Assembly (NCBI GenBank): GCA_937936785.1
Contig: CALDDQ010000003.1
Span: forward strand, 1-64,000
Direction: 5' to 3'
DNA: 64,000 nucleotides
From: an uncultured Endomicrobiia bacterium
Lineage (GTDB): Bacteria; Elusimicrobiota; Endomicrobiia; DTEH01
How positions within the stretch are numbered: the stretch's first letter is position 1; every line of letters begins with the position of its first letter. Under the pieces are notes generated by a model that saw only the letters and a list, made by a program, of their open reading frames with translations, was not told the DNA's origin and searched no databases. Positions 31,195 through 59,944 of this stretch are shown one piece after another. The translations under genes and the position numbers were made by a program.

Positions 31195-31223
31195 TTGACA
31201 AAAAAAAATTTTTTTTATATACT
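31195..31223 (+). promoter_or_regulatory. Strong promoter of molybdenum hydroxylase operon A
   Basis: Consensus TTGACA (31195-31200), 17-bp poly-A/poly-T spacer and TATACT (31218-31223). The start codon at 31237 is 13 bp after the -10, so the leader would be about 7 nt. No Shine-Dalgarno is present. Confidence 0.65.
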
Positions 31224-31236
31224 AATAGAATATAAA

Positions 31237-33534: not shown

Positions 33535-33540
33535 AAAATA

Positions 33541-34413
33541 ATGTTTTTACCATTTGATTATCAATCACCAAAAAGTTTAAAAGAATGTCTAAAACTCATT
33601 TCCGAAAATGAAAATGCACACATTTTAGCTGGTGGGACGGATCTTATTGTAAATATTCGTAGCGGAAAAATTATACCACAACTTGTTGTTGATATAAAAA
33701 ACATATCCGAATTATCTGACATAAAAAAAACTGACAATTATATTGAAATTGGTTCTTTAACAACAATGAATCAAATTACAAAATCATCTTTATTAAAAGG
33801 TGCTTATTATTTATTATCTTATGCAGCATCAATAATGGGATGTTATGAAATTAGAAACAGAGCTACTATCGGTGGAAATATTATAAACGCATCTCCCGGT
33901 GCTGAAACTTTAAATCCATTAGTTGTTTTAAGTGCAAAAGTTGTTTTAGAATCAACCTCTGGACAAAGAATATTGTCAATTGAAGAATTTGTTTGTGGCC
34001 CAAATAAAACTGAAATTAAAAAAAATGAACTGTTAACTAAAATTTTAATTCCAATAGTAAATGAAGAAGCAGATGGGGTATACATGCGAAGACAACGTGT
34101 TAAAGGGATGGATTTAGCATCAGTAAATTGTGCAATTTTTATCACAAACAAAAGTGATATTAAAAAAAGAAAAATCAAAATTTCATTTGGCACTGTAACA
34201 CCAAAACCTTACCGACCAATAAAAGTTGAACAATTATTAGAAAACAATAAAATTACTAAAAATTTAATTCTGGAATCAGTAAAAATTATTAATTCAGAAA
34301 TAAATCCTCGTACAACAAGTTTACGTGCATCACCTGAATATAAAAAATTTATGATAGAATATTTTCTAGTTGAAGGATTAAAAAAAATTTTAGGAGAAAT
34401 TAATGTCAATTAA
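33541..34413 (+). CDS. Molybdenum hydroxylase A, FAD-binding subunit
   Basis: A 290-aa CO-dehydrogenase-flavoprotein-family subunit with both FAD motifs: AGGTDLIVNIR near residue 31 and NRATIGGNIINASPGAE near 106. It passes electrons from the iron-sulfur subunit to NAD+ or another acceptor. It lies 6 bp after the large subunit and overlaps the iron-sulfur subunit by 11 bp, consistent with a co-translated three-subunit enzyme. Confidence 0.93.
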   Translation: MFLPFDYQSPKSLKECLKLISENENAHILAGGTDLIVNIRSGKIIPQLVVDIKNISELSDIKKTDNYIEIGSLTTMNQITKSSLLKGAYYLLSYAASIMGCYEIRNRATIGGNIINASPGAETLNPLVVLSAKVVLESTSGQRILSIEEFVCGPNKTEIKKNELLTKILIPIVNEEADGVYMRRQRVKGMDLASVNCAIFITNKSDIKKRKIKISFGTVTPKPYRPIKVEQLLENNKITKNLILESVKIINSEINPRTTSLRASPEYKKFMIEYFLVEGLKKILGEINVN

Positions 34414-34861
34414 AATACAATTTAAACTTAATGGTGAAGAAAAAAATTTTTATGTTAAACCAAATATGACATTGTTAGAACTTATTCGAGAAAAAGCACA
34501 TCTTACAGGGACAAAACATGGTTGCGGTAATGGCGAATGTGGTGCTTGCACAATTATTATGAATGGAGAACCTGTTAGATCTTGTTTAATTCTTGCTGTT
34601 GAAGCTGATGGCAAAGAAATTATAACAATTGAAGGAATTTCACCACAAAATTTAACTGAACTACAAAAAGCTTTCATTGATGAAGGAGCAATCCAGTGTG
34701 GATTTTGTACTCCGGGATTTATTATGGCAGGTGAAGCATTGTTTAAGAAAACACAAAAACCTTCCGATGACGAAATCAAAGAATCTTTATCAGGACATCT
34801 ATGTAGATGCACTGGTTATGAACCTATTTTTAACGCATTTAAAAAAGTTGCAAAAAAGTAA
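34403..34861 (+). CDS. Molybdenum hydroxylase A, 2Fe-2S subunit
   Basis: A 152-aa protein with two 2Fe-2S centres: the plant-ferredoxin-like GCGNGECGACTI with a fourth Cys at VRSC, and the helical-domain CGFCTPG plus CRCTGY. Length and motif spacing match CoxS/XdhC-type small subunits. It relays electrons from the molybdenum site to FAD. AGGAG precedes the ATG inside the end of the FAD gene. Confidence 0.95.
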   Translation: MSIKIQFKLNGEEKNFYVKPNMTLLELIREKAHLTGTKHGCGNGECGACTIIMNGEPVRSCLILAVEADGKEIITIEGISPQNLTELQKAFIDEGAIQCGFCTPGFIMAGEALFKKTQKPSDDEIKESLSGHLCRCTGYEPIFNAFKKVAKK

Positions 34862-34920: not shown

Positions 34921-37900
34921 ATGCCAGACAAATTTTCTCCTGTTGAGATAGATGTTTTGTTTACCTGGATTTTAGATGAATTAAAATTTAGAAACCAAAT
35001 TTTTGGTATCCCAAAAGAACAATTTTTTTTACCTCAAAAAAATAATATTTTAAAAACTACGAAATACTCTCAATTATTAGAAACTCCCATAGGTGTTGCA
35101 GCAGGACCTCATACACAAATGGCACAAAATATAATTTCGGCCTGGCTTTGTGGTGCAAGGTTTATTGAGTTAAAAACAGTTCAAACACTGGATGAACTAA
35201 AAATTTCCAGGCCTTGTATCGATATGGAAGATGAAGGATATAACTGTGAATGGTCACAAGAATTAAAATTAAATGAATCTTTTAATGAATATCTAAAAGC
35301 TTACATTATAATTTTAATTTTAAAAGATATATTAAAAATCGAGAATCAAGAAAACCAGCCTGGATTTATTTTTAACCTAAGTATAGGCTACGACTTTAAA
35401 GGTATATTACAAGATAATATGCAAAAGTTTTTAGATAATTGTAAAAACATTAAACCACATACAGAAAAGTTTTTATACAAAATCAATAAAATTTATCCAA
35501 AAGTTAAAAATATTAATTTTTTAGACAAGTTATCAAACAATATTACTTTATCAACAATGCATGGTTGTCCACCAGAAGAAATTGAACAAATTGGACTTTA
35601 TTTAATAGAACAACTTGGGTTAAATACTACAATAAAACTTAATCCAACATTGCTTGGATATGAAGAAGTTCGTAATATACTAAATAATCTTGGATTTAGT
35701 AATATAGAATTAAAAAAAGATTCTTTTGAGCATGATTTAAACTTTGATACAGCAATAAAAATTGTTAAAAAATTAAAATTTATATCAGAGAAAAAAAATT
35801 TAGAGTTCGGTATTAAATTAACTAACACTCTTGCATGTATAAATAATAAAGATATTTTTTCTAAAAACGAACCTATGATGTATATGTCAGGCCGAGCTTT
35901 GCACCCTATTGGGATAAATCTTGCAAACAAAATTTTTAATACTCTAAATGGTGATATAAAAATTTCGTTTACTGGAGGAGTTAATACTTTTAATATTTCT
36001 GACGTAATTTCTTGTAATTTAATCCCTGCAACAGTTTGTTCTGATATTTTAAAACCTGGTGGTTACCAACGACTTACACAATATTTAGAAACTTTAACAT
36101 TAGAGTTTAAAAAATTAAACGTAACTTCTATTGAAAATTTTATAATAAAAACTTCTAAACTAAAAAATGTTTCTTTAAAAGATGCTATATCAAAAAATTT
36201 GTTTATTTATTCAAAAAAAGTTTTAGAAAATGAAGATTACTATAGAGAAACCTATCCATATAAATCTATTAAAATAAAATCTAAGAAATTAAGACCTTTT
36301 GACTGTATTAACGCACCGTGCATAACTACTTGTCCTACAAACCAAAATGTACCTTGTTACATTTTCTTGGCAAAACAAAAAAAGTTTGATAAAGCATTAG
36401 AAATTATTAAACAAGATAATCCTATGCCAAAAGTTTGTGGAAATATTTGTGTTCGCACTTGTGAAACAAAATGTACAAGAATTAATTATGATTATCCAAT
36501 AATGATTCGTGATATGAAAAAGTTTATTTCCGAAAGAAGTCAGGTTATACATAAAAAATTAAATATAAAAAATAATACAAAAATTGCTATAATTGGTTCA
36601 GGACCTGCAGGACTTTCTGCTGCATATTATTTAACATTAGCAAATTTTAAAGTTACAATTTTTGAATCAAAAAAAAATGTAGGAGGAGTTGTTTCAAATA
36701 TTATTCCGAATTTTCGTATTTCAAAAAATGTTGTTAATGACGATATAAGAAAAATCATTTCTTTAGGTGTAAAGGTATGTTACAATCAAACCTTTGGAAA
36801 AGATTTTAATATAAAAAAATTAAAAAAAGAAAATTTTAAATACATTTTTATTGCTACAGGATTACCTAAAGGTAAAAAGTTAAATATTGAAAATGAAAAT
36901 GCAAAAAATGTTTTTGACTGTTTAAGTTTTCTATCACAGGTAAAATCAAAATTGATTAATTTATCTTATTTAGGCACAGAAGTTATAGTTATTGGAGGTG
37001 GAAATTCTGCAATTGATGCAGCACGGACCTCTAAAAAATTTTTAAAAAATAGTGGAACAGTTACAGTTGTTTACCGTAGAACAAAAGATCTAATGCCTGC
37101 TGATACTAAAGAAATCAAAGAAATGTTAGATGAAGGTGTTAAATTAGTTGAACTTGCAGCACCTAAACGAATTCTAATAAAAGATGGTTCAGTAAAAGGA
37201 TTAGAATGTATAAAAATGGGACTTTCAGAAAAGGACGATTCAGGAAGAAGAAAACCTGTTGAAATTCAAGGAACAGAATTTGTTTTAAGATGTTCTTCAA
37301 TAATTGTTGCTATAGGACAAGATAACAATAGCACAATTTTTAGTAATAGTGGAATAGCAATTTCAAAAAATGGACTTATTGTTACTAATGAAAAACTTGA
37401 AACAAATATTGAGAACATTTTTGCAGGTGGGGACATTGTTCGTGGTGCAAATTCTATAATACAATCTATAGCAGATGGTAAAAAAGTTGCTTTTGAAATT
37501 ATAAAAAAAGAAAAAATTAAAAATTTTAACAAAATCTATGGTAACAAAATAAGAATAAATATACCTATAAAAAAATTGTTATTAAAAAAATCTTTAAGAA
37601 TAAAACCAACTTATTCTAAACTTGACTCAAAAAATTATGTAAAAGAAACTGATAGATGTCTAAACTGTGATTTATTATGTAACATTTGTGTAACAGTATG
37701 TCCCAATAGAGCAAACCAATATTATGAAACTAAAAAACAAATATTTTATATTAAAAAAGTTGTTATAACCAACAATAAACCACAAATTTTAGATGATAAA
37801 AAATTTATTTTATCTCAACAGGTGCAAATATTAAACATTGGTGATTTTTGTAACGAATGTGGAAATTGTAATACATTTTGTCCTTCTGATAATGCACCGT

Positions 37901-38235
37901 ATAAAATAAAACCAAAGTTATATTTAACAAAATCAGAGTTTGATTTAAACCAAAACAATGTGTTTTACTATAAAAAAAATGTTTCAGGAGATAGTTGTTT
38001 GCAAGCAAAATTTGATGGAAAAACTTATTCTTTAACTAAAAAAGATAAAATTTGGGACTATGAAACTGAAGAACTAAAAGTTGAATTTTTACAAAATATG
38101 AAAATAAAAAATTTAGTATTAAAATCTAACATTTCCAATAACACAACAATTTCTTTAGAACCAGCAATACAAATGTTTATAATCTTAAAGTACGGAATAA
38201 AAAGTTTAAGTTTTATTTTTAACCAACAAAGATGA
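34921..38235 (+). CDS. ygfK: YgfK-type flavo-iron-sulfur oxidoreductase (putative selenate reductase subunit family)
   Basis: A 1104-aa multidomain protein. The N-terminal 400 or so residues resemble a dihydroorotate-dehydrogenase-like barrel (PIGVAAGPHTQM, STMHGCPPEEIEQI). A cysteine-rich segment follows (CINAPCITTCP, CGNICVRTCETKC). Then comes a glutamate-synthase-small-subunit-type NADPH flavodomain (IIGSGPAGLSAAYYL, VIGGGNSAIDAART, FAGGDIVRGA). The C-terminus has ferredoxin-like Cys clusters (CDLLCNICVTVCP, CNECGNCNTFCP). In Escherichia coli and clostridia ygfK sits beside molybdenum hydroxylase and purine-degradation genes; selenate reduction is only a database name. Here it lies between two hydroxylases and probably moves electrons for one of them. 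It overlaps the next gene by 4 bp. Confidence 0.88.
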   Translation: MPDKFSPVEIDVLFTWILDELKFRNQIFGIPKEQFFLPQKNNILKTTKYSQLLETPIGVAAGPHTQMAQNIISAWLCGARFIELKTVQTLDELKISRPCIDMEDEGYNCEWSQELKLNESFNEYLKAYIIILILKDILKIENQENQPGFIFNLSIGYDFKGILQDNMQKFLDNCKNIKPHTEKFLYKINKIYPKVKNINFLDKLSNNITLSTMHGCPPEEIEQIGLYLIEQLGLNTTIKLNPTLLGYEEVRNILNNLGFSNIELKKDSFEHDLNFDTAIKIVKKLKFISEKKNLEFGIKLTNTLACINNKDIFSKNEPMMYMSGRALHPIGINLANKIFNTLNGDIKISFTGGVNTFNISDVISCNLIPATVCSDILKPGGYQRLTQYLETLTLEFKKLNVTSIENFIIKTSKLKNVSLKDAISKNLFIYSKKVLENEDYYRETYPYKSIKIKSKKLRPFDCINAPCITTCPTNQNVPCYIFLAKQKKFDKALEIIKQDNPMPKVCGNICVRTCETKCTRINYDYPIMIRDMKKFISERSQVIHKKLNIKNNTKIAIIGSGPAGLSAAYYLTLANFKVTIFESKKNVGGVVSNIIPNFRISKNVVNDDIRKIISLGVKVCYNQTFGKDFNIKKLKKENFKYIFIATGLPKGKKLNIENENAKNVFDCLSFLSQVKSKLINLSYLGTEVIVIGGGNSAIDAARTSKKFLKNSGTVTVVYRRTKDLMPADTKEIKEMLDEGVKLVELAAPKRILIKDGSVKGLECIKMGLSEKDDSGRRKPVEIQGTEFVLRCSSIIVAIGQDNNSTIFSNSGIAISKNGLIVTNEKLETNIENIFAGGDIVRGANSIIQSIADGKKVAFEIIKKEKIKNFNKIYGNKIRINIPIKKLLLKKSLRIKPTYSKLDSKNYVKETDRCLNCDLLCNICVTVCPNRANQYYETKKQIFYIKKVVITNNKPQILDDKKFILSQQVQILNIGDFCNECGNCNTFCPSDNAPYKIKPKLYLTKSEFDLNQNNVFYYKKNVSGDSCLQAKFDGKTYSLTKKDKIWDYETEELKVEFLQNMKIKNLVLKSNISNNTTISLEPAIQMFIILKYGIKSLSFIFNQQR

Positions 38236-40514
38236 AAAAAAATTTAAACGTAGTAGGAGAATCAGTTTTACGAAATGATGTTGTAGAAAAAGTTTTAGGT
38301 ACTGCAAAGTATATTGATGATTATAAATTTGATGGGATGTTATATGGTTTCACTGTTCGTTCAACAATATCGCACGGAAAAATTATATCCATTAATATTT
38401 CAAAAGCAAAAAAAATTAATGGTGTAGTAAATATTTTCACTGCAAAAGATATCCCTGGAAAAAATTTTTTCCCAATGATATTAAATGATTACCCATTTTT
38501 AGCTGAAAATAAAGTTTTATTTTATGGACAACCAATTGCTTTAGTTGTAGCAACAAACCAAGAAATTGCAAAAGAAGCAGCAAAAAATGTTTTTATAGAA
38601 TATGAAGAATTAGAACCAGTGTTAGATATCCACTATGCAATGAAAAAAAATTCTCCTAAAATTTTTGGTTCTGACAACATTTTACGAAAATATATAATAA
38701 AAAAAGGTAACATTGACCAAGGATTTAAAGAAGCAGATGTTATTGTTGAAGATGTATTTGAAACTAATTATCAAGTTCATTCATACCTTGAACCTAATGG
38801 TATGATAGCAGTTCCACAACCTGATGGTGGAATCACTGTTTATGGAACTATGCAATGTCCATTTTATGTTCATGATGCAATTGCAAATATTTTAAATATT
38901 TATCATAACAAAATCCGTGTAGTGCAAACAACTACAGGTGGTGGTTTTGGTGGTAAAGAAGATGTTCCATCATTAGTTGCTGGACATGTAGCTTTACTTG
39001 CTTATCTAACTAAGAAACCCGTAAAACTTGTTTATACCAGAGAAGAAGATTTTCATGGAATGTCTAAACGTCATCCAGGTTATATTGAAATTAAATATGG
39101 AGCAAAAAAAAATGGAAAAATTGTTGCTGCAAAAGTGCGATATATTCTTGATGGAGGAGCATTTGCTACTTTAAGTCCGATAGTTTTGTGGCGTGGAACG
39201 GTTCATGCTGTAGGACCTTATGATATACCAAACGTTTTAATAGAATCTTTTGCTGTTGCTACAAACAAAGTTCCGTGTGGTGCATTTCGTGGTTTTGGTC
39301 AACCACAAGCTACGTTCGCAAATGAATCGCTAATAGATATATTAGCAGAAAAACTTAAAATTTCGCCACTAAAGTTACGTCAGATAAATATGTTAAAACC
39401 TTATTCAAGAACTGCTACAAATGATAAAATCTCAAACAGTTGTGGATTTAAAAAAGTTTTAAGTGAAGTTATAAAAAAGTCCAAATATGAAAAAATTCTA
39501 TCCAAAAAAAATGAAAATTTATCTACAATAAAAACTGGTGCAGGACTAGCAATTGCATTTTATGGAGTAGGATTAGGTGCAGGTGGAAAATATATTGACC
39601 GAGCTGGTGCTTATTTACAAATTCAAAAAGATGGTACTGTAATAATATCTATTGGCAATACAGAACTTGGACAAGGAGTATTTACTGTTATATCACAGAT
39701 TGCATCAGAAATTCTCGGTGCACCATATGAATTTGTAAAAGTTTTACAACCGGACACTACCAGAGTTCCTGACAGTGGACCTACAGTAGCATCAAGGTCA
39801 ACTTTAATGTCTGGTAATGCAGTTTTAGATGCTGCAAAACAGGTTAGAGAACGTATTGATACTATGGTGTTAAAATTATTCAATAAATCAAAAGGTAAAG
39901 TTTATTCCAACGGTAAAGAATATTTTATTAGTACAAATCCTGAAAAAAAAATACATTATTTAGAAGTTATAAAAAAATGTTTTGTTCAAAGAATAAATTT
40001 ATCAGCAACTGGATGGTATACTGGTGAAGATGTTTCATTTGATTCTGAAACTGGTCAAGGAAAAGCATATTATTCTTATACATTTTCAGCTACAGTTGCA
40101 ATTGTTAAAGTAAATATTTTAACCGGTGTTGTAGAAGTAAAAAAAATTGTTAGCGGACATGACATTGGCAAAGCAATAAACCCCAAATTATGTGAAGCAC
40201 AAATTGAAGGTGGAGTAATACAAAGTTTAGGTTATGCTTTAACAGAAAATTTAGTTTTGAAAAATGGTATAATTTTAAATCCAAGTTTTGCAGGGTATTT
40301 AATTCCAACTTCTATGGATATCCCGGAAATTATACCAGTAATAGTAGAATCTAAATATTCTAAAGGACCATTTGGTGCTAAAGGTTTAGGTGAATCACCG
40401 ATGATAACACCATCTACTGCTATTGCAAATGCAATTTATAATGCTACCGGATTTAGAACTAAAAAGTTGCCTGTTACACCTGAAATTTTATTAGAATTAA
40501 AAAATAAAAAATGA
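38232..40514 (+). CDS. Molybdenum hydroxylase B, large (molybdopterin-binding) subunit
   Basis: A 760-aa xanthine-dehydrogenase-family subunit with GGGFGGKED, VPCGAFRGFGQPQ and the Q-loop NTELGQGVF. The C-terminal FGAKGLGES carries the catalytic Glu. It is clearly a paralogue of enzyme A but diverged, and its operon has a different order (Mo-FeS-FAD), so this is not a recent tandem duplication. It starts at ATGA overlapping ygfK, implying co-translation with it. Substrate unknown; purine or related N-heterocycle is the contextual guess. Confidence 0.9.
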   Translation: MKKNLNVVGESVLRNDVVEKVLGTAKYIDDYKFDGMLYGFTVRSTISHGKIISINISKAKKINGVVNIFTAKDIPGKNFFPMILNDYPFLAENKVLFYGQPIALVVATNQEIAKEAAKNVFIEYEELEPVLDIHYAMKKNSPKIFGSDNILRKYIIKKGNIDQGFKEADVIVEDVFETNYQVHSYLEPNGMIAVPQPDGGITVYGTMQCPFYVHDAIANILNIYHNKIRVVQTTTGGGFGGKEDVPSLVAGHVALLAYLTKKPVKLVYTREEDFHGMSKRHPGYIEIKYGAKKNGKIVAAKVRYILDGGAFATLSPIVLWRGTVHAVGPYDIPNVLIESFAVATNKVPCGAFRGFGQPQATFANESLIDILAEKLKISPLKLRQINMLKPYSRTATNDKISNSCGFKKVLSEVIKKSKYEKILSKKNENLSTIKTGAGLAIAFYGVGLGAGGKYIDRAGAYLQIQKDGTVIISIGNTELGQGVFTVISQIASEILGAPYEFVKVLQPDTTRVPDSGPTVASRSTLMSGNAVLDAAKQVRERIDTMVLKLFNKSKGKVYSNGKEYFISTNPEKKIHYLEVIKKCFVQRINLSATGWYTGEDVSFDSETGQGKAYYSYTFSATVAIVKVNILTGVVEVKKIVSGHDIGKAINPKLCEAQIEGGVIQSLGYALTENLVLKNGIILNPSFAGYLIPTSMDIPEIIPVIVESKYSKGPFGAKGLGESPMITPSTAIANAIYNATGFRTKKLPVTPEILLELKNKK

Positions 40515-41017
40515 AAAAAAAGATTACTTTTTATTTAAATAATGAAAAAGTAGTTGTAAAATGTCATCCACTGAAAACTTTGTTAAAAGTACTAAGAGAA
40601 GATTTGAACCACACAGAAGTAAAAAATGGTTGTGAACAAGGTGAATGTGGAGCATGTACTGTAATAATTGAAGATGAAGATAAAAAATCTTTTGCTACAA
40701 ACTCATGCCTTGTTGCGATAGGACAAGTTGAAGGGAAAAAGATTGTAACAATTAAAGGTTTAAATAAAGAAAAAGAGTTACACCCTATACAAAAATCTTT
40801 TATTGATGAAGGAGCAGTTCAGTGCGGGTTTTGTACTCCTGGATTAATTTTGGTTACAAAATCTTTATTAGACAACAATCCAAATCCTACTGATGAAGAA
40901 ATTAAGTATGCAATTTCAGGAAATTTATGTCGTTGTACGGGATATATAAAAATCTTTGCTGCAATAAAAAAAGCTATAAAATTAGTTAAAAAAATAAGAA
41001 ATAGTAAAAAAATTTAA
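40511..41017 (+). CDS. Molybdenum hydroxylase B, 2Fe-2S subunit
   Basis: A 168-aa protein with GCEQGECGACTV and fourth Cys (NSC) for the first cluster, and CGFCTPG with CRCTGY for the second. It has a short lysine-rich C-terminal tail not seen in the A and C counterparts. It overlaps the large subunit by 4 bp (ATGA). Confidence 0.95.
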   Translation: MKKKITFYLNNEKVVVKCHPLKTLLKVLREDLNHTEVKNGCEQGECGACTVIIEDEDKKSFATNSCLVAIGQVEGKKIVTIKGLNKEKELHPIQKSFIDEGAVQCGFCTPGLILVTKSLLDNNPNPTDEEIKYAISGNLCRCTGYIKIFAAIKKAIKLVKKIRNSKKI

Positions 41018-41033
41018 ACAAATATATAAATAA

Positions 41034-41918
41034 ATGATTTATTATCCTGAATATTTACAACCAAAAACTTTAGAAGAATTGTTTAAAGAATTACCAAAAA
41101 ATAAAAAAATTTATTATTTGGCTGGTGGGACTGACTTGTTAAACTATTTAAGAGATGAACTAGTTGATAAAAAAAATAGTTGTTTTGTAGACTTGTCAAA
41201 GATAAAAGAGTTGGTTTTTATAAATGAAACTAACAAAAATATTGAAATAGGATCAATGGTATCATTTAACATTCTACAAGAAAATAATTTGGTAAAAAAA
41301 CATTTCCCAGCAATAACATCTATGTGCAAAACTTTTTCCACACCGATAATTTCTAATAGAGCAACCATAGGAGGAAACATCGCCAACGCATCACCTTCAG
41401 GCGATTCTTTGCCTGTTCTTTACACTCTTAACACTAAAATTGAAATTAAAAATTTTTCTCAAACACGAATAGAAGATATAGATAAAATTTTTGTTGGACC
41501 AAAAAAAACTAATTTTAAAAATGGTGATTTGATAACTAAATTAATTATTCCAAAACAAGTTTTGCAGAAAGGTTTTTCTATAATTGGTATTTTTAAAAAA
41601 GTTGGTGGAAGAAAATCTCATATAATATCTAAAGCATCAATTGCTATCTCTGCAATATCAAAAAGTGATTACATAAAAAAAATTAATGTAGCAGTAGGAG
41701 CAGTAGCACCTACAGTGTTGAAAATAAACACAATATCTGAAATATTAAATAACAAAAAACTTAACAAAAAACTTGTAAAAGATAGTGTTGAAGAAATTAA
41801 AAAAGTTATCTCACCTATTGATGATTTTAGATCTACTGCAAATTATAGAAAAGAAGTTGTCTCATCTTTATTTTTAGAATCAATATCAGAACTGTTTAAA
41901 TTTAATTTTTATGACTAA
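41034..41918 (+). CDS. Molybdenum hydroxylase B, FAD-binding subunit
   Basis: A 294-aa flavoprotein with AGGTDLLNYLRDE near residue 31 and NRATIGGNIANASPSGD near 110, both canonical FAD-binding motifs. It lies 16 bp after the 2Fe-2S gene and overlaps the MocA-like gene by 8 bp. Confidence 0.93.
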   Translation: MIYYPEYLQPKTLEELFKELPKNKKIYYLAGGTDLLNYLRDELVDKKNSCFVDLSKIKELVFINETNKNIEIGSMVSFNILQENNLVKKHFPAITSMCKTFSTPIISNRATIGGNIANASPSGDSLPVLYTLNTKIEIKNFSQTRIEDIDKIFVGPKKTNFKNGDLITKLIIPKQVLQKGFSIIGIFKKVGGRKSHIISKASIAISAISKSDYIKKINVAVGAVAPTVLKINTISEILNNKKLNKKLVKDSVEEIKKVISPIDDFRSTANYRKEVVSSLFLESISELFKFNFYD

Positions 41919-43626: not shown

Positions 43627-45942
43627 CTATTTAATATTATTTTTTTTAATTTCTTGAAGAACTTTTTCTGGAGTAAATGGTGTAGAATATAACCTTATTC
43701 CAGTTGCATCATAAATTGCATTTGCAATTACAGGGCAGGGACCGTTTATACCAATCTCAGAAATACTTTTTGCACCAAAAGGTCCTGTTGGTTCATAAGT
43801 AGGTACTAAGATAGTTTTTAGTTCAGGTAAATCTGCAGTAGAAAAAATTTTGTAATAATCAAAGTTTGGATTTAACATTTTACCGTTTTTATTAAAAATA
43901 TATCTTTCTGTTAAAGCATAACTTATTCCGTTCAATACAGCACCTTCAGTTTGTCCTTGAGCAAAAATTGGGTTTATAGCAGTTCCACAATCTACTGCTG
44001 CAACATATTTTATCACTCTTACTTTTCCAGTTAAAAAATCAACTTCTACTTCAGCAAAATGGGCAGAAAATGGTGGGGGAGATTTGTGCACTATTGCAGA
44101 ATCTGTTGCCATGATTTGAAACTGATTTTTTGTATACATAGAATACATTGCAATTTCGTTAAAACTTAAATTACCTTTTTTACCAATTACTTTCTCATTT
44201 TTTATAACCAAATTTTTAATATTTTCATTTAACATTTCACTTGCTACTTTTAAAATCTGATCTTTAACCTTTTGTGCAGTTTTTATCACTGCTTGACCTG
44301 ATAAATAAGTAGTGCTTGAAGCATATGCCCCAACATCAAATGGAGTAAAATCTGTATCCGAAGAATAAACTACAATTTTTTCTGTTGGCACACATAGAAC
44401 TTCCGCTGCACATTGTGCTAAAATTGTATCTGACCCGGTACCTAAATCTGTTGCACCAATTAATAAGTTAAAAGAACCATCTTCATTCATTTTAATAAAT
44501 GCTGAACCCATATCTATCTCAGGAATTGCCGACCCTTGCATTAATATTGTCATACCAACTCCTCGACGGTATCTGCCAAACTGTTTTTTATTATACTTTT
44601 TATACCAACCAATCTCTTTTGCTGCTAAATCTATACATTTGCTTAATCCACAAGATGTAATATTTTGTTCAACACCTTCTTTACCTTCACCAAGTTTTGC
44701 AAATAATGGTGAAGTTTCTCCTTCTTTAATATGAATTTTTTTATACCATTTAATAATATCAACACCAATTTTTCGTGCCATTTCGTCCATCTGAACACCA
44801 AACGCAAAATACCCTTCCGTAGCACCATAACCACGATATGCACCACCAACAGGAAGGTTGGTATAAACTGTAGTTCCTTCAAACCTTACATTATTACATT
44901 TTACTAAAGGTAATATTTTACTACCAGTATTAGTCAACACTGTCAGTCCATGAGTACCATATGCTCCTGCATTCATAATAACATTCATATCCATTGCAGT
45001 TATTGTTCCATCTTTTTTTATTCCTGTTTTAAATTTTATAATTTGTGGGTGACGACATCGTGAACTAATAAATTCTTCCTTACGAGTATATTTTAAACAT
45101 ACTGGAATACCAGATTTTAATGCTAATGCTGCTACCAACGGTTCTAACAAAACTTCTTGTTTTGCACCAAATCCTCCGCCTATACGAGGTTTTATAACAC
45201 GAATTTTCTGCACTGGAATATTCAATGCACGAGAAACTATCCTGCGAACATGAAATGGTACTTGTGTGCTTGTGAGAATTATCATCCTACCATAGGAATC
45301 AAAATAAACTGTTGTAATATGTGTTTCAATTGGAGTATGTTGTGCTAAATGTATTTCATATTCGTGTTCAAATATAAAGTCTGACTCATTAAAACCTTTA
45401 TCAACTGAACCAACTTCAGTATTTACATGAGCACAAATATTTTTTTTAGGATAATATTCCAAAGGCAAAGGCATATGAGCCTCTTTCTCATCATGGATTA
45501 TTGGAGCATCTTTTTTAAGTGAATCTCGTGGATCTAATATTGGTTCTAAAATTTTATATTTAACTTTTATCAACTCTAACGCCTGCTGTGCAATTTCTTC
45601 TGTTTGAGCAACCACAGCTGCAACTCTGTCTCCAACATAACGCACCTTTTTATCAAGAATAAAAGAATCATACGGAGATGGTTCTGGAGCACCTTGTCCT
45701 GCAGTTGTAAAAGGTATCCTTGGAACATCTTTATATGTTATAACCGTTTTAACTCCAGGTAAATTTAATGCTTCAACAGTATCTATATCTTCAATAATTG
45801 CATGCGCATATGGACTATACAAAATTTTTGCCCAGTGTAAATTGGGGATATTATAATCTGCAACAAACATCGGTCTGCCTGTAACTAATGAATAACCATC
45901 AACTTTAATTTTGTTTTTTCCAACCTGATTAAATTTTTTCAT
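43627..45942 (-). CDS. Molybdenum hydroxylase C, large (molybdopterin-binding) subunit
   Basis: A 771-aa subunit with KPRIGGGFGAKQE, VGGAYRGYGATEG and Q-loop ATDLGTGSD (Thr replaces the usual Gln in GQG). The C-terminal FGAKSISEIG retains the catalytic Glu in an altered context (SISE instead of GLGE). These deviations set it apart from A and B and suggest a different substrate, perhaps an aromatic or acyl-CoA-type compound. It is transcribed on the minus strand as the last gene of FAD-FeS-Mo. Confidence 0.9.
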   Translation of the reverse strand: MKKFNQVGKNKIKVDGYSLVTGRPMFVADYNIPNLHWAKILYSPYAHAIIEDIDTVEALNLPGVKTVITYKDVPRIPFTTAGQGAPEPSPYDSFILDKKVRYVGDRVAAVVAQTEEIAQQALELIKVKYKILEPILDPRDSLKKDAPIIHDEKEAHMPLPLEYYPKKNICAHVNTEVGSVDKGFNESDFIFEHEYEIHLAQHTPIETHITTVYFDSYGRMIILTSTQVPFHVRRIVSRALNIPVQKIRVIKPRIGGGFGAKQEVLLEPLVAALALKSGIPVCLKYTRKEEFISSRCRHPQIIKFKTGIKKDGTITAMDMNVIMNAGAYGTHGLTVLTNTGSKILPLVKCNNVRFEGTTVYTNLPVGGAYRGYGATEGYFAFGVQMDEMARKIGVDIIKWYKKIHIKEGETSPLFAKLGEGKEGVEQNITSCGLSKCIDLAAKEIGWYKKYNKKQFGRYRRGVGMTILMQGSAIPEIDMGSAFIKMNEDGSFNLLIGATDLGTGSDTILAQCAAEVLCVPTEKIVVYSSDTDFTPFDVGAYASSTTYLSGQAVIKTAQKVKDQILKVASEMLNENIKNLVIKNEKVIGKKGNLSFNEIAMYSMYTKNQFQIMATDSAIVHKSPPPFSAHFAEVEVDFLTGKVRVIKYVAAVDCGTAINPIFAQGQTEGAVLNGISYALTERYIFNKNGKMLNPNFDYYKIFSTADLPELKTILVPTYEPTGPFGAKSISEIGINGPCPVIANAIYDATGIRLYSTPFTPEKVLQEIKKNNIK

Positions 45943-45953
45943 TTTTTCAAAAT

Positions 45954-46430
45954 TTAAACTTTTAATTTTTTATAAATTCTTTTTGCGGCTAATTTTACCG
46001 CATCTAAAATTTTTATATATCCAGTGCAACGACATAAGTTTCCTTCTAATGCAACTTTAATCTCATCTTCAGTAGGAGAAGGATTTTTATCTAACAACGC
46101 TTTAGTACTTAAAATCATACCTGGTGTACAGTAACCACATTGTACTGCTCCTGCTTCTAAAAATGATTTTTGTATAACATCTAAACCATTTTCTTGTCCC
46201 AAACCTTCTAATGTTAAAACTGTTTTGTTGTTAGCACGAAATGCCGGATAAAGACAAGAATTTATCGCTTTTCCATCTACCAAAACTATACACGCACCAC
46301 ATTGTCCTTCTCTACAACCCTCCTTAACACTAACATAGCCATATCTTCGTAACAAATCTAACAAAATCTCTGTTTCTGACTTTAATTCAAACTCTTTATT
46401 TTGATTATTTATTACAAATTGTATTTTCAT
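45954..46430 (-). CDS. Molybdenum hydroxylase C, 2Fe-2S subunit
   Basis: A 158-aa protein with GCREGQCGACIV, NSC, CGYCTPGM and CRCTGY, all eight cluster cysteines in place. It overlaps the FAD gene by 4 bp (ATGA on the minus strand) and precedes the large subunit by 11 bp. Confidence 0.95.
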   Translation of the reverse strand: MKIQFVINNQNKEFELKSETEILLDLLRRYGYVSVKEGCREGQCGACIVLVDGKAINSCLYPAFRANNKTVLTLEGLGQENGLDVIQKSFLEAGAVQCGYCTPGMILSTKALLDKNPSPTEDEIKVALEGNLCRCTGYIKILDAVKLAAKRIYKKLKV

Positions 46431-47257
46431 TTGTTTTCTTCCAATAATTTATACAAAAATTCTTTTATTAAAACAGTTAAAATTTCTTTTTTGTATTCAA
46501 CAGATACTCTAATATCATTACTTACTTTTACTTCTTGAACAATATTATCTACAACACTTAAAATTCGTTTTTCATCAATTTTATTATCTTGCAAAATTTT
46601 TTCTGCATTTACAAATCTTTGTGGTAAAAGTGTCAACCCAATTGCAACTATCCTAATTTTTTTTATTTTTTCTTTGTCTTTTTCACAAATAATCCCTATA
46701 CTTACTATAGGATAATCCGTTACAGTAAAAGAAAATTTTTTCCAATAAGTAACAACATTCTTTTTATCTGCTGGAAATTGAATTTCTGTAATAATATCTT
46801 TTCCTAAAATATTTTTAGGTATTGAAGAAAATAATTTTTCTGCTTTAAACACAAAACCTTTTGCAGTTATAACTTTACCTTCTAACAACATCAATAACCC
46901 AGGAAACACTGACCACGGATGAATACCAACAATATTACCACCAATAGTTATAAGATTTCTGTTTGCAGTTGCAGCAATAGTTCGTGATGCTTCTTTTATT
47001 ATTCCATTATAATAACCTTTTACAATTGGTGAATCTATTACATCACTTACAGTAGTCATAGAACCAATTTTTAGTCCGTTATTAAAAGACCTTATATAAT
47101 TAAGTTTTAACTGTTGTAAATCAAGTAATTTAATATCTTTTGGCAAGTTTAGTAATAACGAAGTCCCGCCAGCGATGGGAACAATTTTTTTATTTTTAGT
47201 TAACAAATCTATTGTTTCAACTAAATTTTTAGGGGAAAATATTTTTGAATTATTCAT
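46427..47257 (-). CDS. Molybdenum hydroxylase C, FAD-binding subunit (divergent)
   Basis: A 276-aa protein of the same flavoprotein family, shorter than A and B. The first FAD motif reads AGGTSLLLNLP (Ser for the usual Asp). The second reads TIGGNIVGIHPWS instead of NASP. FAD binding through the GG motifs is probably kept, but the isoalloxazine environment should differ. It is the first gene of the minus-strand operon, with a strong promoter 30-60 bp upstream. Confidence 0.88.
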   Translation of the reverse strand: MNNSKIFSPKNLVETIDLLTKNKKIVPIAGGTSLLLNLPKDIKLLDLQQLKLNYIRSFNNGLKIGSMTTVSDVIDSPIVKGYYNGIIKEASRTIAATANRNLITIGGNIVGIHPWSVFPGLLMLLEGKVITAKGFVFKAEKLFSSIPKNILGKDIITEIQFPADKKNVVTYWKKFSFTVTDYPIVSIGIICEKDKEKIKKIRIVAIGLTLLPQRFVNAEKILQDNKIDEKRILSVVDNIVQEVKVSNDIRVSVEYKKEILTVLIKEFLYKLLEENK

Positions 47258-47321: not shown

Positions 47322-47422
47322 TATAAGAACAAAAAAGTAAATAGAAAATTGTTTAATTTGTAACAAACAAGTTTTAATTAAGTAACACAAATATATATTT
47401 CTTAAAATCATATATTGATAAA

Positions 47423-47446
47423 TCGTTATGTTTTTTGTAGTATAAC
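47423..47446. promoter_or_regulatory. Possible ModE operator
   Basis: CGTTAT and TATAAC flank a T-rich centre, forming an interrupted palindrome (GTTAT/ATAAC) that resembles the CGTTATAT...ATATAACG type of molybdate-responsive operator. It lies just upstream of the ModE-like frame and overlaps its likely promoter (TTGATA at 47415, TAGTAT at 47438). This is the place expected for autoregulation or control of the divergent operons. Confidence 0.3.
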
Positions 47447-47455
47447 AAAGTTTTT

Positions 47456-47820
47456 ACGAAGATAAAAATTAAAACCATATTAACTAATAACAAAAATATT
47501 ACTTTTATATGCATTGGAGTTGTTTGGTTGTTAGAAAAAATTGTTAAATATGGCTCTACCCATTCTGCTGCTAAAGATATGAAAATGCCATATTCTAAAG
47601 CAATAAAAAATTATTAGTAACCTTGAAAAAAAATTTAAACCAAAAAATTATAATTTCACACATCGGTGGTAAAAAATGTGCTGAGAGTAAATTAACTGAT
47701 TTTAGGATAAATTTTTTAACTAAATTTTGTTCTTTGGACAATAAATTTTTAATGGAGAAAAAAATTAAAAGAAAAGTATACAAATTTTTGATAAAATTTG
47801 AAAATAAATCACTGCAATAA
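47456..47820 (+). pseudogene. modE: ModE-like molybdate regulator (winged HTH domain), disrupted
   Basis: The frame from 47456 reads KIKIKTI..., then GVVWLLEKIVKYGS and THSAAKDMKMPYSKAIK, closely matching the ModE N-terminal helix-turn-helix (LLE.I...GS...AAK.M.MSY..A). It then hits a stop at 47614. Removing one A from the six-A run at 47605-47610 and one from the eight-A run at 47626-47633 restores IISNLEKNLNQKII followed by SHIGGKKCAESKLTDF, the ModE wing. The codon expected to be ATG is ACG (47456-47458). The repaired product would be about 120 aa, the length of HTH-only ModE proteins. Either it is a pseudogene, the indels are sequencing errors, or polymerase slippage on the A-runs rescues it. 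Confidence 0.75.
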
Positions 47821-47874: not shown

Positions 47875-48729
47875 ATGAGAACACCAATAAAACAAATTTT
47901 AATCTTTACATTTATTCTTCCTATGATATTATATGGTAAACCACAAAAAAAAGAACTAAATTTTTTTTGTGGTTCTGCAGTAAAAGTTCCTATGGAAGAA
48001 ATTATACAAAAATATCAACAAAAAACAGGTGTAAAAATTAACGTAATTTATGGTGGTTCAGGAACTTTATTGTCACAGATAGAACTGAGCAAAAAAGGTG
48101 ATGTATATCTTGCCGGGTCTCCTGATTACATAATTATAGGAGAAAATAAAAAGTTGTTAATAAAAAATACTGATAAAATAGTATCCTATCTTGTCCCGGC
48201 AATAATTGTTCCTAAAAATAATCCTAAAAATATTAATTCTTTACAAGATCTTGGTAAAGAAAATGTTCGTATAGGTATTGGTAATCCAGAAACTGTTTGT
48301 CTTGGACTTTATAGTGCTGAGTTGTTAGAATACAATAATTTATTGGAAAAAGTTATGTCTAATATTGTAGTTTTTGCAAAAAGTTGTGAAGATACTGCAA
48401 TGTTAGTAGTATTAAACAAAGTGGATGCAATAATTGGTTGGGATGTGTTTGAAACTTGGAACCCAAACGAAGTTAAATGGATAAAACTTACCGAACCAGA
48501 AATACCACGAATTTCTTATATACCAATTGCTATCCCTATTTTTGTAAAAGAAAAAAAACTTGCACAAGATTTTATAAATTATATTTTGTCAAAAGAAGGA
48601 CAGGATGTTTTTAAAAGATGGGGATACATTAGTAAAGCAGATGAAGCATTAAAGTTTGCCCCAAAAGCAACAATTGGAGGAGAATATAAGTTACCAAAAA
48701 AATTTTATGATATATTAAAAAATAAATAA
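47875..48729 (+). CDS. modA: Molybdate (or tungstate) ABC transporter substrate-binding protein
   Basis: A 284-aa protein with a signal peptide (KQILIFTFILPMILYG). The ModA-type ligand region is FFCGSAVKVPMEEI, followed by YGGSGTLLSQIELSKKGDVYLAGS. The two lobes alternate as in other oxyanion-binding proteins. It would capture molybdate in the periplasm for ModBC. Tungstate cannot be excluded because both oxyanions use similar folds. Located upstream of modB and modC in the standard order, it supports the cofactor needs of the three hydroxylases nearby. Confidence 0.9.
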   Translation: MRTPIKQILIFTFILPMILYGKPQKKELNFFCGSAVKVPMEEIIQKYQQKTGVKINVIYGGSGTLLSQIELSKKGDVYLAGSPDYIIIGENKKLLIKNTDKIVSYLVPAIIVPKNNPKNINSLQDLGKENVRIGIGNPETVCLGLYSAELLEYNNLLEKVMSNIVVFAKSCEDTAMLVVLNKVDAIIGWDVFETWNPNEVKWIKLTEPEIPRISYIPIAIPIFVKEKKLAQDFINYILSKEGQDVFKRWGYISKADEALKFAPKATIGGEYKLPKKFYDILKNK

Positions 48730-48763
48730 TCTTTAATAACTTTTCCTTTTTTTTAATTTTGTT

Positions 48764-49555
48764 ATGAAAAATAAAACATTTAATTTTTTGTTATTTTTTT
48801 TCTTAGGATTTATTATAGTATTTTTTTTAATCTTAATTATAGAACTTTTTGGTTATTTAAACTTTACTACAACAAAAAATTTAAATTTTTCAAGAATTTT
48901 TTGGTCAATAAGATTAACTATAACAACTGCAACAATATCATCTTTAATAGCAACTTTCTTTGCTATACCTATAGGATATTTATTATCAAGATACTCCTTT
49001 CCACTAAAAAATTTTATCAGTTCGTTATTGTATTTACCAATAATAATCTCTCCGATAGCATTAGGTGCAATGTTACTAATTTTTTTTAACACACCTATAG
49101 GAACATTTTTTGAAAAATATTTTTTTAGGGTGGTATTTGAAGTTCCAGCAATTGTTTTTGCACAGTTTGTGATAATTATTGGTATGTGTATAAATTTAAC
49201 AAAATCAGTGTTTGATTACATAAACCCAGAATATGAAAATATTTCAAAAACACTCGGTGCAACAAGTTTCCAAACTTTTTTTTATATAACATTACCAATG
49301 GCTAAAAAAGGTATCATATCTGCATTTTTACTAACCTGGGCAAGGGCAATGGGAGAGTTCGGTGCTACGGTAACTTTAGCTGGTGCAACTACTTTTAAAA
49401 CAGAAACTTTACCTGTGGCAATATATTTATCCTTTGCTTCAGCAGAAATTTCTACCGGAATAACTTTTATACTAATTACATTATTTATCGGAATGACAAT
49501 TTTAATAATTTTACATTCATTAAACAACAAATTGTTTTATGATAAAAATACATAA
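48764..49555 (+). CDS. modB: Molybdate ABC transporter permease
   Basis: A 263-aa membrane protein with about six hydrophobic segments and the permease EAA loop NISKTLGATSFQTFFYITLPMAKKGI, which contacts the ATPase. The RAMGEFGATVTLAGAT segment is characteristic of ModB/CysT-type permeases. It forms the inner-membrane channel. The last 17 bp overlap modC. Confidence 0.92.
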   Translation: MKNKTFNFLLFFFLGFIIVFFLILIIELFGYLNFTTTKNLNFSRIFWSIRLTITTATISSLIATFFAIPIGYLLSRYSFPLKNFISSLLYLPIIISPIALGAMLLIFFNTPIGTFFEKYFFRVVFEVPAIVFAQFVIIIGMCINLTKSVFDYINPEYENISKTLGATSFQTFFYITLPMAKKGIISAFLLTWARAMGEFGATVTLAGATTFKTETLPVAIYLSFASAEISTGITFILITLFIGMTILIILHSLNNKLFYDKNT

Positions 49556-50618
49556 TTTAAACTTTGATGTAGGAAAATTTCAACTACGAAATGTATCATT
49601 AGAAATTTTAGACAACGAATATTTTGTTCTCTTAGGACCATCCGGCAGTGGCAAAACTACTTTGTTAAAATGTATCCTTGGAATACACAAAATCGTTTCA
49701 GGAAAAATTTTTGTTAATGAACAAGAAGTTACTAATCTACATACAGAAAACAGAAACATAGGTTTTTTACCACAAAATTTTTTACTTTTTCCTAATATGA
49801 ACGTTTTTAACAATATTGCTTATGGACTTAAAATTAAAAATAAATCTAAAGAATTTATAATTTCTGAAATAAAAAAAATTGTTAACGATTTAAAAATTTC
49901 TCATTTGTTAAATAGACAAATTTTTTCGTTATCTGGTGGAGAAACACAAAAAGTTGCTTTAGCAAGAGCAATTATTACTAATCCTAACCTATTATTACTT
50001 GATGAACCATATTCTTCAATAGATGAAAATTATAAAACAGACATTTGTTTTGAAATTAAAGATAACTTAAAAAAATTAAATATTCCAGTTATTCATATAA
50101 CACACAATCTTGATGAAGCATATGCTTTAGCTGATAGAGTGGGAATAATTATAAATGGTATAATTAATCAAGTAGGTTTTCCAAAAGAAGTTTTTAATTT
50201 TCCAACAAATGAAAACGTGGCAAAGTTTTTAGGTATAAAAAATATTTTTGATGGTGAAATTGTTGAAATTTTTAACAACGATATCGTTTTAAATTTTAAT
50301 AATATAAAAATTGTTGTAAATAAAAATAAAGATAAAAATTATATAAAAAATAAAAAAATAAAATTTTGTATAAAACCAGAATCAATAAAAATTATAAAAC
50401 CAAATGAACCCGTCAGGGACGAACTTAAAGAAAATATTTTTGATACAAAAATTGTTGAAATAAATTTTTATTCAGATACATGTATAATGAAAATTGACCT
50501 GTTCAATGATAAAATTTTAACAATGAAATTCCCAATTTATATTTTTACAAGATATAACTTAAGTATTGGTAAAAAAATTAAAATTGGTCTATGGAAAACT
50601 GGTATTATAAGTTTTTAA
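49539..50618 (+). CDS. modC: Molybdate ABC transporter ATP-binding protein
   Basis: A 359-aa ATPase with Walker A GPSGSGKTTLLK, the Q-loop LPQNFLLFP, signature LSGGETQKVALARA, Walker B LLLLDEPYSS and switch HITHNLDEA. The C-terminal extension of about 120 residues fits a TOBE/MOP oxyanion-sensing domain. It powers ModB. It overlaps modB by 17 bp and closes the operon. Confidence 0.92.
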   Translation: MIKIHNLNFDVGKFQLRNVSLEILDNEYFVLLGPSGSGKTTLLKCILGIHKIVSGKIFVNEQEVTNLHTENRNIGFLPQNFLLFPNMNVFNNIAYGLKIKNKSKEFIISEIKKIVNDLKISHLLNRQIFSLSGGETQKVALARAIITNPNLLLLDEPYSSIDENYKTDICFEIKDNLKKLNIPVIHITHNLDEAYALADRVGIIINGIINQVGFPKEVFNFPTNENVAKFLGIKNIFDGEIVEIFNNDIVLNFNNIKIVVNKNKDKNYIKNKKIKFCIKPESIKIIKPNEPVRDELKENIFDTKIVEINFYSDTCIMKIDLFNDKILTMKFPIYIFTRYNLSIGKKIKIGLWKTGIISF

Positions 50619-51678: not shown

Positions 51679-53613
51679 ATGTTCTATAACGAACTTGATA
51701 TTTTAAGTTCATATCCAGTAGAACTACTCGATTTTGAAGGAAACAGGTTGTATACAAATTGGTCAAATGCAAGAAATTTTGCTGCTTCAGATACAACTTA
51801 TCCCACAGCATTAAGTTGGAGTAACAACATAAATAATGCTAACTTAAGTGTGTTACAACTTGGAGTTACCGGAAATCCATTATCTTATTTAAACATTGAT
51901 GACTCACGAACAGGGTTAATTTATCAATTTTATGGTGGAGTAGCAAATACTATAGATTTTGATGCAGATGGAACAGTTGATTCTGAATATAAAAGAGTAA
52001 ACATAACCAACACTCCAACAAGTGCTACAGATGTTACGCCAATGAGAGTAATAACAGAAGACACTGCAGTAAAATATTATCAAAAAACTACTAATAATCA
52101 AATAAATTTTGGTATTGCAAAAAAAAGTTTAATTTTAGATAATTTGTCAGGTGGATTGTCATTAACAAGTATTAGTAACACAATAATATTAAACTCAGAA
52201 GGTAAAAAATCTTACACCGACAGATACTTAACCGATGCAGGCGCTGCCATAAACGGTATGCCAGCAGGAGCACGAGAAGGTGATACATATACAGCAACAT
52301 ATGAACCTAATACTACAGACCAAAATTCTTCTTACATTACAGACCTACTTGCACAAGCAAGATATTCTGGTTTGTTAGACAATTTAACTCTTAGCGCAGC
52401 TGCAGGATTACGGTTTGCAACAACAATAAACCCGGGTGGACTTTTATCATCGGGAGGTACCCCACAAGGTATATTGGAAAAAAACATTGTCACAATATCA
52501 GCCAAAGATGATGTAGTTTATGGTGGAACACAATATTATGATTATGGGACATCAATAAAGAATAGATCTGCTACCTTCAACTATGTACCAAATCCAACTT
52601 TAGCAAATATTGGTAAAGCAGTAGTTGGTGTATGGGATACTTCAGGTGCTGCTGGTGTTGCAGATTTTAGTGATAAAAGAAGCGGTTTAGGACCAATGTT
52701 AAATGTTGAAGGTTTATACAAACTTGACAATATAAACTTAACCGGGGTTATAAATTTTAACACTGTAAAACAAACCATTGACGCTACACAAACAAATAAA
52801 GAATACATAAATACAAAAACAGTAAATCCAGCCGCACCTACCGAAGTTAGAAATTATACTGAAATAGATTACACTGAAACAATAGCGTCAACAGGTGAAT
52901 CTACAATTTCAAATATAGATTTCGGTTTAAAGTTAGAGTTTAAAACATTAGAAAAGATCAAATTAGCTTTAGGTGGATTTATAAGAAACAACATTAACCT
53001 AAATGATTTTTCAAAAGTTACAGTAAACATTGTTCATAAGGTTTCATATGATGATGGTAACGCAGCAAACAATCCGGGAACTGTTGGTTTGGGTTTGGGT
53101 AGTCTCCCAGGACCTTTGGCAACTGACGGTTTTGGTATAGCAACAGGTAATGGTGAAGGAACATGGCAAAGCACAATTAACAGAGAATATTCTGGTAAAG
53201 TTGAAACTTTGACAACAAGATATATAGTTCCAATCGGTATGGAAATACCTGTGTATAAAAACAAATGGTTGTTCAGAGCAGGAAGTGCATTTGAATTACT
53301 AACAACAAAAACTACTACAAGAAGTGTTCAAGAATATTCAAAAACTGCAACTTCAGCAACACCAGCTGGTGGAGCAGCATTGTATGCTGAAGCTATTGAC
53401 AATCAACCATTGACAACAGAAGTTGTTCAATATGCGGAAACTTATACAACTTCATACACTTACGGTATTCAGTGGAATGTTAATAATAGTTTGACTCTTG
53501 CAGCGAATGCTGTGTTGGACACAAACGCAAACATTGCAACAGCTGATAAAGCGACTATTTTTGATTTAGACACATATAGAAATTTGTCAATCCAGGCAAT
53601 ATTTAAGTTTTAA
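51679..53613 (+). CDS. Outer-membrane beta-barrel-type protein without a signal peptide (possibly 5'-truncated)
   Basis: A 644-aa protein rich in Thr, Asn and Gly with long alternating strands (LTLSAAAGLRF, NINLTGVINFNTVKQ, LKLEFKTLEKIKLALGGFIRNN). It ends in LSIQAIFKF, whose terminal Phe is typical of outer-membrane proteins. No signal peptide is present: the frame begins MFYNELDILSSYPVELL, already mature-like, and an in-frame stop lies 18 bp upstream. With only 42 bp between the -10 and the ATG, the missing export signal cannot be hidden there. It is either a truncated gene or one whose start was lost. It also looks somewhat less AT-rich than its neighbours. Confidence 0.65.
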   Translation: MFYNELDILSSYPVELLDFEGNRLYTNWSNARNFAASDTTYPTALSWSNNINNANLSVLQLGVTGNPLSYLNIDDSRTGLIYQFYGGVANTIDFDADGTVDSEYKRVNITNTPTSATDVTPMRVITEDTAVKYYQKTTNNQINFGIAKKSLILDNLSGGLSLTSISNTIILNSEGKKSYTDRYLTDAGAAINGMPAGAREGDTYTATYEPNTTDQNSSYITDLLAQARYSGLLDNLTLSAAAGLRFATTINPGGLLSSGGTPQGILEKNIVTISAKDDVVYGGTQYYDYGTSIKNRSATFNYVPNPTLANIGKAVVGVWDTSGAAGVADFSDKRSGLGPMLNVEGLYKLDNINLTGVINFNTVKQTIDATQTNKEYINTKTVNPAAPTEVRNYTEIDYTETIASTGESTISNIDFGLKLEFKTLEKIKLALGGFIRNNINLNDFSKVTVNIVHKVSYDDGNAANNPGTVGLGLGSLPGPLATDGFGIATGNGEGTWQSTINREYSGKVETLTTRYIVPIGMEIPVYKNKWLFRAGSAFELLTTKTTTRSVQEYSKTATSATPAGGAALYAEAIDNQPLTTEVVQYAETYTTSYTYGIQWNVNNSLTLAANAVLDTNANIATADKATIFDLDTYRNLSIQAIFKF

Positions 53614-53631
53614 CAAAAAAACTAAAATAGG

Positions 53632-53671
53632 ACAGTTGTTAGTTTAACAAAAATTTTTTGCTAATAACTGT
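53632..53671 (+). terminator. First hairpin after the outer-membrane protein gene
   Basis: ACAGTTGTTAG (53632-53642) pairs with CTAATAACTGT (53661-53671) with one G-T wobble. It is followed a few bases later by a T-run. Confidence 0.45.
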
Positions 53672-53687
53672 TAGGAATAGTTTTTTT

Positions 53688-53734
53688 AAGAAGCACTTGG
53701 GAAAAGAATTTTTTTCAAGTGCTTCTTTTTTTTT
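53688..53734 (+). terminator. Strong Rho-independent terminator
   Basis: AAGAAGCACTTG (53688-53699) and CAAGTGCTTCTT (53716-53727) form a perfect 12-bp stem, followed by seven further Ts. It ends the 51679-53613 transcript and supports this being a genuinely transcribed gene. Confidence 0.92.
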
Positions 53735-53753
53735 GTTTCCACGGATAAAAATT

Positions 53754-53955
53754 GTCATTACCGACATATCCAACTTAAAATCTCGTATATCCTGGTATCA
53801 AGTACAGAATAACAAACTATGAATTTTTGTAACAAAAACTTTTTTTGTGTCATTTAATGGATGAAGAACTCAAAGTCATTTCTGGAAAAACAATCTCAGT
53901 TTTTAGATTAAGATTACTTCGTTTTTTGCATTCACAGTAGTAGCAATATTATTAT
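53754..53955. repeat. Decayed intergenic palindromic repeats
   Basis: The 502 bp from 53740 to 54241 hold no gene. At 53754-53813 a segment runs GTCATTACCG... to TCCTGGTATCAAGTACAG, ending AATAAC. This recalls the widespread GTCATTCCCG...CCTGGATCAAGTACAGGATGAC intergenic palindromes. At about 53850-53955 a second segment has GTCATTTCTGG, CAATCTCAG, AAGATTACTTCG and GCAATA, like the GTCATTGCGAG...GATTGCTTCG family. Both are worn. The identification is from memory of those families and needs a search. Confidence 0.35.
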
Positions 53956-54170
53956 TGAAAAAAATTCGTAAATTCTGTTATAATAAGGTTGATTTTATAA
54001 TACAAATTTCTTATATTAACACAATTATAAAAAACAAAATCACAGAAATTAAGTAAAAAAATGCTTGTTTTAACACATAAAAGTAAACATTATTTAATAA
54101 AAGATATTATTTTAAACCAAGAAATATGGATTTATAGAAAAAATTCTAATTGATAACAATTATTTTGAAA

Positions 54171-54198
54171 TTGTTTTTGCTATAATATATCATATAAG
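54171..54198 (+). promoter_or_regulatory. Putative promoter of the 54242 outer-membrane protein gene
   Basis: TTGTTT (54171-54176), 16-bp spacer, TATAAG (54193-54198). A perfect TATAAT also lies at 54181-54186. The leader would be about 35-50 nt. Confidence 0.35.
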
Positions 54199-54241
54199 TA
54201 GAAATTACAAAATTAAAAAAAGAAATAAACCAAATCAAACT

Positions 54242-59219: not shown

Positions 59220-59944
59220 TTTTTTTTTATTAACAATTAATAGTGATACAACTAACAGTAATAACAGTAACTATTTTAAATTAAACGCTTTTGTAAAAAC
59301 ATTATGGATTTTTTATAGATTGCTATGGGGTAGGAGCTATAAATGATAAAATGGATCTTCTACTAAGTATTATTCCTTTACTTTTTATTTTTTTCTAGCA
59401 ATTTCATTTTTATATTCAAACATTATTGGTTTAAAATTTAGTTTTTTTGTTGTTTTGCGCTGGTTCCTATAATATATATTATGTTAAGTTATTATATTTA
59501 TAGTATGCCTTATTTTTAAACTTAAAATATTCGATAATTCGTATTTTTTAAAAATAAATTAAAGCATTACATTATTTTTTATTTATTTGTTTTTCTGTAA
59601 TTTATTTTTTATTTTTTGAATATTTTATTTAGCAGGATATTTATTTCTGTTTAACACTTTGAAAGCAGAATTTTTGATTAGTGGGGCTAATTTAAAAATT
59701 TTCAAATATGGTAGGTGTTGGGACCATTGTTATATTTCTGAAACTTCACCAAAACGCATTTAAACAGAAAAACTTTGACCAAAATGCAAAAGAAAAAAGA
59801 AATCAATTTTTAAAAACAATGTTTTTAAAGCAAGCAAAAAAACATATAAATGTATATTGCAAAGGAACTTTTTAAAAAAGTACAAAAATAAAATACTACG
59901 CAATAGTTATCTTATTTTTTATAAGGATAGACATAATTACTAAT
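59220..59944. other. Gene-poor stretch with possible eroded coding remnants
   Basis: These 725 bp hold no convincing gene. A 55-codon frame at 59708-59875 (+) begins MVGVGTIVIFLKLHQ. The opposite strand over roughly 59600-59740 reads WSQHLPYLKIFKLAPLIKN in an open frame lacking a start and broken by stops. Both look like protein sequence but lack ribosome-binding sites, so relics of a lost gene are likelier than live ones. Confidence 0.4.

Follow-up and report, generated by a model that had tools for sequence, protein, structure and literature searches.

A single-domain modE gene, probably a pseudogene of fairly recent origin, ahead of an intact modABC operon in an uncultured Endomicrobiia bacterium

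Full-length ModE proteins of the E. coli type carry C-terminal Mop/TOBE molybdate-binding domains, and the core of the E. coli ModE consensus site has been quoted as CGNTATAT-N8-ATATANCG (PMC545781). For the single-domain ModE of Desulfovibrio a different site was proposed (PMC545781), whereas several modE genes of the phylum considered here have exact E. coli-type boxes; for Desulfovibrio, molybdate sensing by a ModE devoid of Mop domains was described as unexplained (PMC545781). The gene that we describe shares with the ModE N-terminal domain family (TIGR00637/COG2005; PDB 2ijl) the winged-helix sequence with a recognition region of the GSI-x-x-AAK-x-M-x-MSY type, the GGK-x-x-x-x-x-LT wing and a location beside modABC, but it has no start codon, two frame changes and substitutions at clade-invariant positions. 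In contrast to ModE of the E. coli type, it spans only 120 codons and has no Mop/TOBE domains. Its closest counterparts are the intact single-domain modE genes of the phylum (L015, L016, L020, L022, L026, L034 and L036), which are 28-39% identical to it over the whole alignment and up to 50% over the first 50 residues, are of similar length (most about 115-120 aa) and in some cases are linked to modABC or molybdenum-cofactor genes; unlike it, they are read in a single frame from ATG or GTG, and several carry the exact CGNTATAT-N8-ATATANCG. As in the poly(A) frameshift pseudogenes of AT-rich bacteria such as Buchnera and Blochmannia, the genome is AT-rich and the frame is lost by changes in A-run length.

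We consider it very likely that the disrupted modE of our window (the whole stretch of 64,000 nucleotides that was analysed; Table 1) is a real pseudogene of fairly recent origin, derived from a single-domain ModE repressor gene that once led a modE-modABC operon. The intact modABC genes (47875-50618) follow directly downstream, which is the linkage of a ModE regulator, and on the other side an intergenic region is shared with a divergent molybdenum hydroxylase operon, whose large subunit (43627-45942) matches XdhA-type models. Three molybdenum hydroxylase operons adjoin modABC in all (31186-34861, 38232-41918 and 43627-47257), and the same cluster holds maturation genes (MocA-like, XdhC-like) and a YgfK-type putative selenate reductase subunit (34921-38235). 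Relatives such as G142 show the gene order cofactor genes, modE, a porin-like gene and modABC.

Table 1. Features of the modE-modABC locus, in positions of the window.
Feature	Position	Strand	Basis
Divergent molybdenum hydroxylase operon, first gene (FAD-binding subunit)	46427..47257	-	read from sequence
Sigma-70-like promoter TTGATA-17-TAGTAT, no better than chance on its own; overlaps the palindrome	47415..47443	+	
Degenerate ModE-box-like palindrome CGTTATGT-N8-GTATAACA, 8 nt upstream of ACG	47424..47447	.	13/16 against CGTTATAT-N8-ATATAACG
Disrupted but full-length modE (probable pseudogene), with a single ModE winged helix-turn-helix domain	47456..47820	+	TIGR00637 on joined frame; tblastn with intact relatives on raw DNA
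ACG replacing the start codon (relatives: ATG or GTG)	47456..47458	+	read from sequence
A6 run, site of the first frame change (+1, or +2 if a single event)	47605..47610	+	
A8 run, second frame change (+1)	47626..47633	+	
modA, intact	47875..48729	+	TIGR01256, 87.7 bits, over cut-off
modB, permease, intact	48764..49555	+	TIGR01581 and TIGR02141
modC/wtpC-type ATPase, intact	49539..50618	+	NF040840, PF00005

The protein obtained by joining the frames matches TIGR00637 (ModE_repress) with an E-value of 7.6e-11, residues 22-95 aligning with profile positions 6-79; its score, like those of all intact copies of the phylum, lies below the curated cut-off of 98.5 bits. Its best match in the PDB is 2ijl, a 'Molybdenum-binding transcriptional repressor' (E-value 4e-4). 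The assignment is independent of the joining, since 1) in the raw, unjoined genome the first frame alone matches TIGR00637 (E-value 0.003), 2) tblastn with the intact L022 protein against the raw DNA aligns 47459-47608 at 50% identity and 47608-47745 at 35% (combined E-value 1e-13), and 3) on a clade-specific profile, built from 13 intact ModEs of the phylum, frame 1 alone reaches 49 bits and frame 0 alone 28. The preliminary description, which had placed ModE homology on both sides of the A-runs, is thereby borne out. On the same clade profile the joined pseudogene scores 92 bits, against 105-163 for the intact members when each is left out in turn. A search across the genome for a second ModE or LysR-type HTH returned none.

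The ACG start, the two A-runs and a rejoined protein of 120 aa are likewise present as first described. Frame 1 starts with the ACG at 47456 and includes the A6 run, a short middle piece reads IISNL, and the third frame leads from the A8 run to a stop codon ending at 47820; with one A dropped from each run, 363 nt remain, which encode 120 aa plus the stop. Upstream of the ModE domain, as far back as the nearest in-frame stop, the frame offers no ATG, GTG or TTG; an internal TTG at about 47528 is the first standard start codon in frame. With this ACG start and the frame changes at 47605-47610 and 47626-47633, the gene is not an intact open reading frame for a ModE regulator.

As to how the frame was lost, the sequence favours two +1 events over one +2, by 5.4 bits on the clade profile and hence neither strongly nor with the force of proof. 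At the break, the double +1 reads KIISNLEKNL, while a single +2 at the first A-run, passing straight from frame 1 to frame 0, reads KLLVTLKKNL. The former is preferred because it restores the glutamate of LE-x-x-L, common to 13 of 13 intact relatives, together with the polar residue before it; the latter gives LK and VT at these places. A single +2 insertion is equally compatible with a pseudogene, needs one event rather than two, comes close in profile score (86.7 against 92.1 bits) and agrees with the tblastn alignment of frame 0 from 47608 onward, so that we regard it as unlikely, though still deserving some weight.

The preliminary description held that all defects are simple. The simple defects are real, yet they are not the whole of the decay, as the gene is also unusually divergent, changed at clade-invariant residues, on a long branch and preceded by a degenerate operator. 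It departs from the 13 intact ModEs at 3 of 12 invariant columns (G to C, S to P at the MSY motif of the recognition helix, and F to Y) and at 9 of 28 columns conserved at the 80% level, counts that alone are not decisive because the two most distant intact ModEs, L010 and L013, leave conserved columns about as often. Its terminal branch measures 1.71, where the median of the ModE rows is 0.28, and the branches of ModA, ModB and ModC of the same genome are ordinary (0.45, 0.58 and 0.85, respectively); AT-driven divergence preceding the loss of the gene could account for part of this length. The codon-position signal, too, is nearly lost: the GC content at positions 1, 2 and 3 is almost flat (0.22, 0.25, 0.20, against 0.39, 0.31, 0.15 in intact genes), and the difference between the first and the third is smaller than in each of 660 overlapping segments of the same length taken from genes.

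On the other hand, the joined frame is free of nonsense codons. In a simple model of neutral, AT-biased substitution, the chance of having no internal stop is 7.5% at 0.1 substitutions per site and 3.5% at 0.15, which points to a recent break and to most of the divergence being earlier than it; constraint would thus have weakened first, and the gene would have been lost later. A strong ModE occurs in 1 of 96 genomes of the class, and that one is distant; a close intact ortholog was not found among them, so we infer the ancestral sequence and the exact events. No convincing modE remnants were found beside modABC in the nearest relatives (G007, G010, G013 and two metagenome genomes), and neither of the latter two, which a scan with ModA had found, has a modE.

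Three options had been offered for the locus, a young pseudogene, homopolymer errors and a rescue by slippage, and our evidence favours the first and disfavours the other two. In favour of an intact gene, in which both extra A's, perhaps with the ACG, are consensus mistakes in a draft assembly, the frame changes fall at the classic site of such mistakes, A-runs, and the joined frame contains no nonsense codon. However, the open genes of 150 aa or more in this window contain 460 A/T runs of at least 6 nucleotides, 87 of them of at least 8, which indicates that errors of run length are rare; no comparable split gene was seen, and at an upper rate of about 3/460 per run the chance of hitting two of the gene's seven such runs is, by our arithmetic, near 0.001. 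As the ACG is a substitution rather than a run error, and as errors would not account for the changed invariant residues, the length of the branch or the loss of the codon signal, we find this account improbable. Hardly credible is a working, recoded gene, in which initiation at ACG and slippage of the polymerase or the ribosome at both A-runs yield some full-length ModE: the frame changes do sit on A-runs, the joined frame has no other stop and the genome uses recoding at prfB, but two independent 1-nt deletions would be needed in one transcript, one of them in a run of just six A's, in addition to a poor start, the residues and the box are degenerate, and no relative has such a layout, which is therefore not conserved, all intact ModE copies of the phylum that we examined having one frame and ordinary starts (ATG or GTG). 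In a survey of E. coli and Buchnera, run-associated errors were mostly insertions, and no restored frame was seen (PMC5574713). That a little full-length ModE made by double slippage and ACG initiation serves as a deliberately weak repressor seems to us just as far-fetched.

The pseudogene probably retains a trace of its operator. The palindrome upstream of the ACG has three mismatches out of 14 to the E. coli-type core, which places it outside the sites with two or fewer, and a score of at least 13 arose in 28 of 5000 simulated intergenic sequences, so we regard it as a probable, degenerate candidate ModE box that, still at 13/16, may keep some operator function. Five relatives score 14-16/16 at the modE start or beside it: CGTTATAT-N8-ATATAACG is found exactly at that of L015, L016 and L036, and CATTATAT-N8-ATATAATG at that of L022 and L026, while none was found at the modE start of L010, L013, L021, L023 and L034. 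The exact CGNTATAT-N8-ATATANCG has 10 occurrences in 204 kb of the relatives' loci, some of which are overlapping records of one site. Further exact or near-exact boxes are found in L008 (982, upstream of modABC), L035 (1349 and 3867) and L038 (8126), the latter two next to receptor-like genes. Taken across the related genomes, the boxes outline a predicted ModE regulon. At the other places inspected in the genome under study, none of the molybdenum genes had an intact box beside it; the best other box, at C17:5522 with one mismatch, falls within an asparagine-synthase-like gene, probably by chance.

Neither the pseudogene nor any of the intact relatives examined has molybdate-binding Mop domains. 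Genome-wide searches for TOBE (PF03459), or for a separate Mop/TOBE protein that could serve as a partner in sensing, found none, nor was a molybdenum-cofactor riboswitch able to replace ModE found, and modABC is therefore expected to be expressed without ModE control. The preliminary description had extended such de-repression from modABC to the hydroxylases. For modABC this is reasonable, and it possibly applies to the divergent operon, which by its common intergenic region may be the only candidate hydroxylase target of ModE; for the hydroxylases in general it is unsupported, because Mop domains are absent and the other hydroxylase operons showed no ModE box nearby.

The window has several further features. 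On the minus strand, prfB (release factor 2; 59945 to about 61060) carries the classic programmed frameshift site (AGAGGATTC CTT TGA C, 60980 region), from which it follows that the genome uses normal RF2 autoregulation. An open frame of 644 aa (51679-53613) has no Pfam match and no obvious signal peptide at its first ATG. Two long AT-rich gaps (53614-54241 and 59220-59944; GC 0.21-0.22) hold no clear gene and are possibly further decayed genes.

Where modE is intact in the relatives, its product probably sits on a palindromic ModE box that covers the gene's start and keeps the operon repressed; with the gene order seen in G142, it most likely represses its own operon. In the bacterium studied here, modE would first have evolved under weakened constraint and then lost both its start codon, as ATG became ACG, and its reading frame, most likely because two A-runs each grew by one nucleotide, with the operator drifting as well. 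The outcome would be an expression of modABC independent of ModE, which may be tolerable given the three molybdenum hydroxylase operons nearby. The bacterium has thus probably lost the ModE switch on molybdate uptake, by the ordinary gene decay of a known regulator family and with no new mechanism. It provides a clear example of a metal-uptake operon without its dedicated repressor, in which the gene and its operator are still recognisable, and, as a somewhat more useful side result, the exact E. coli-type ModE boxes at the starts of several single-domain modE genes in this phylum.
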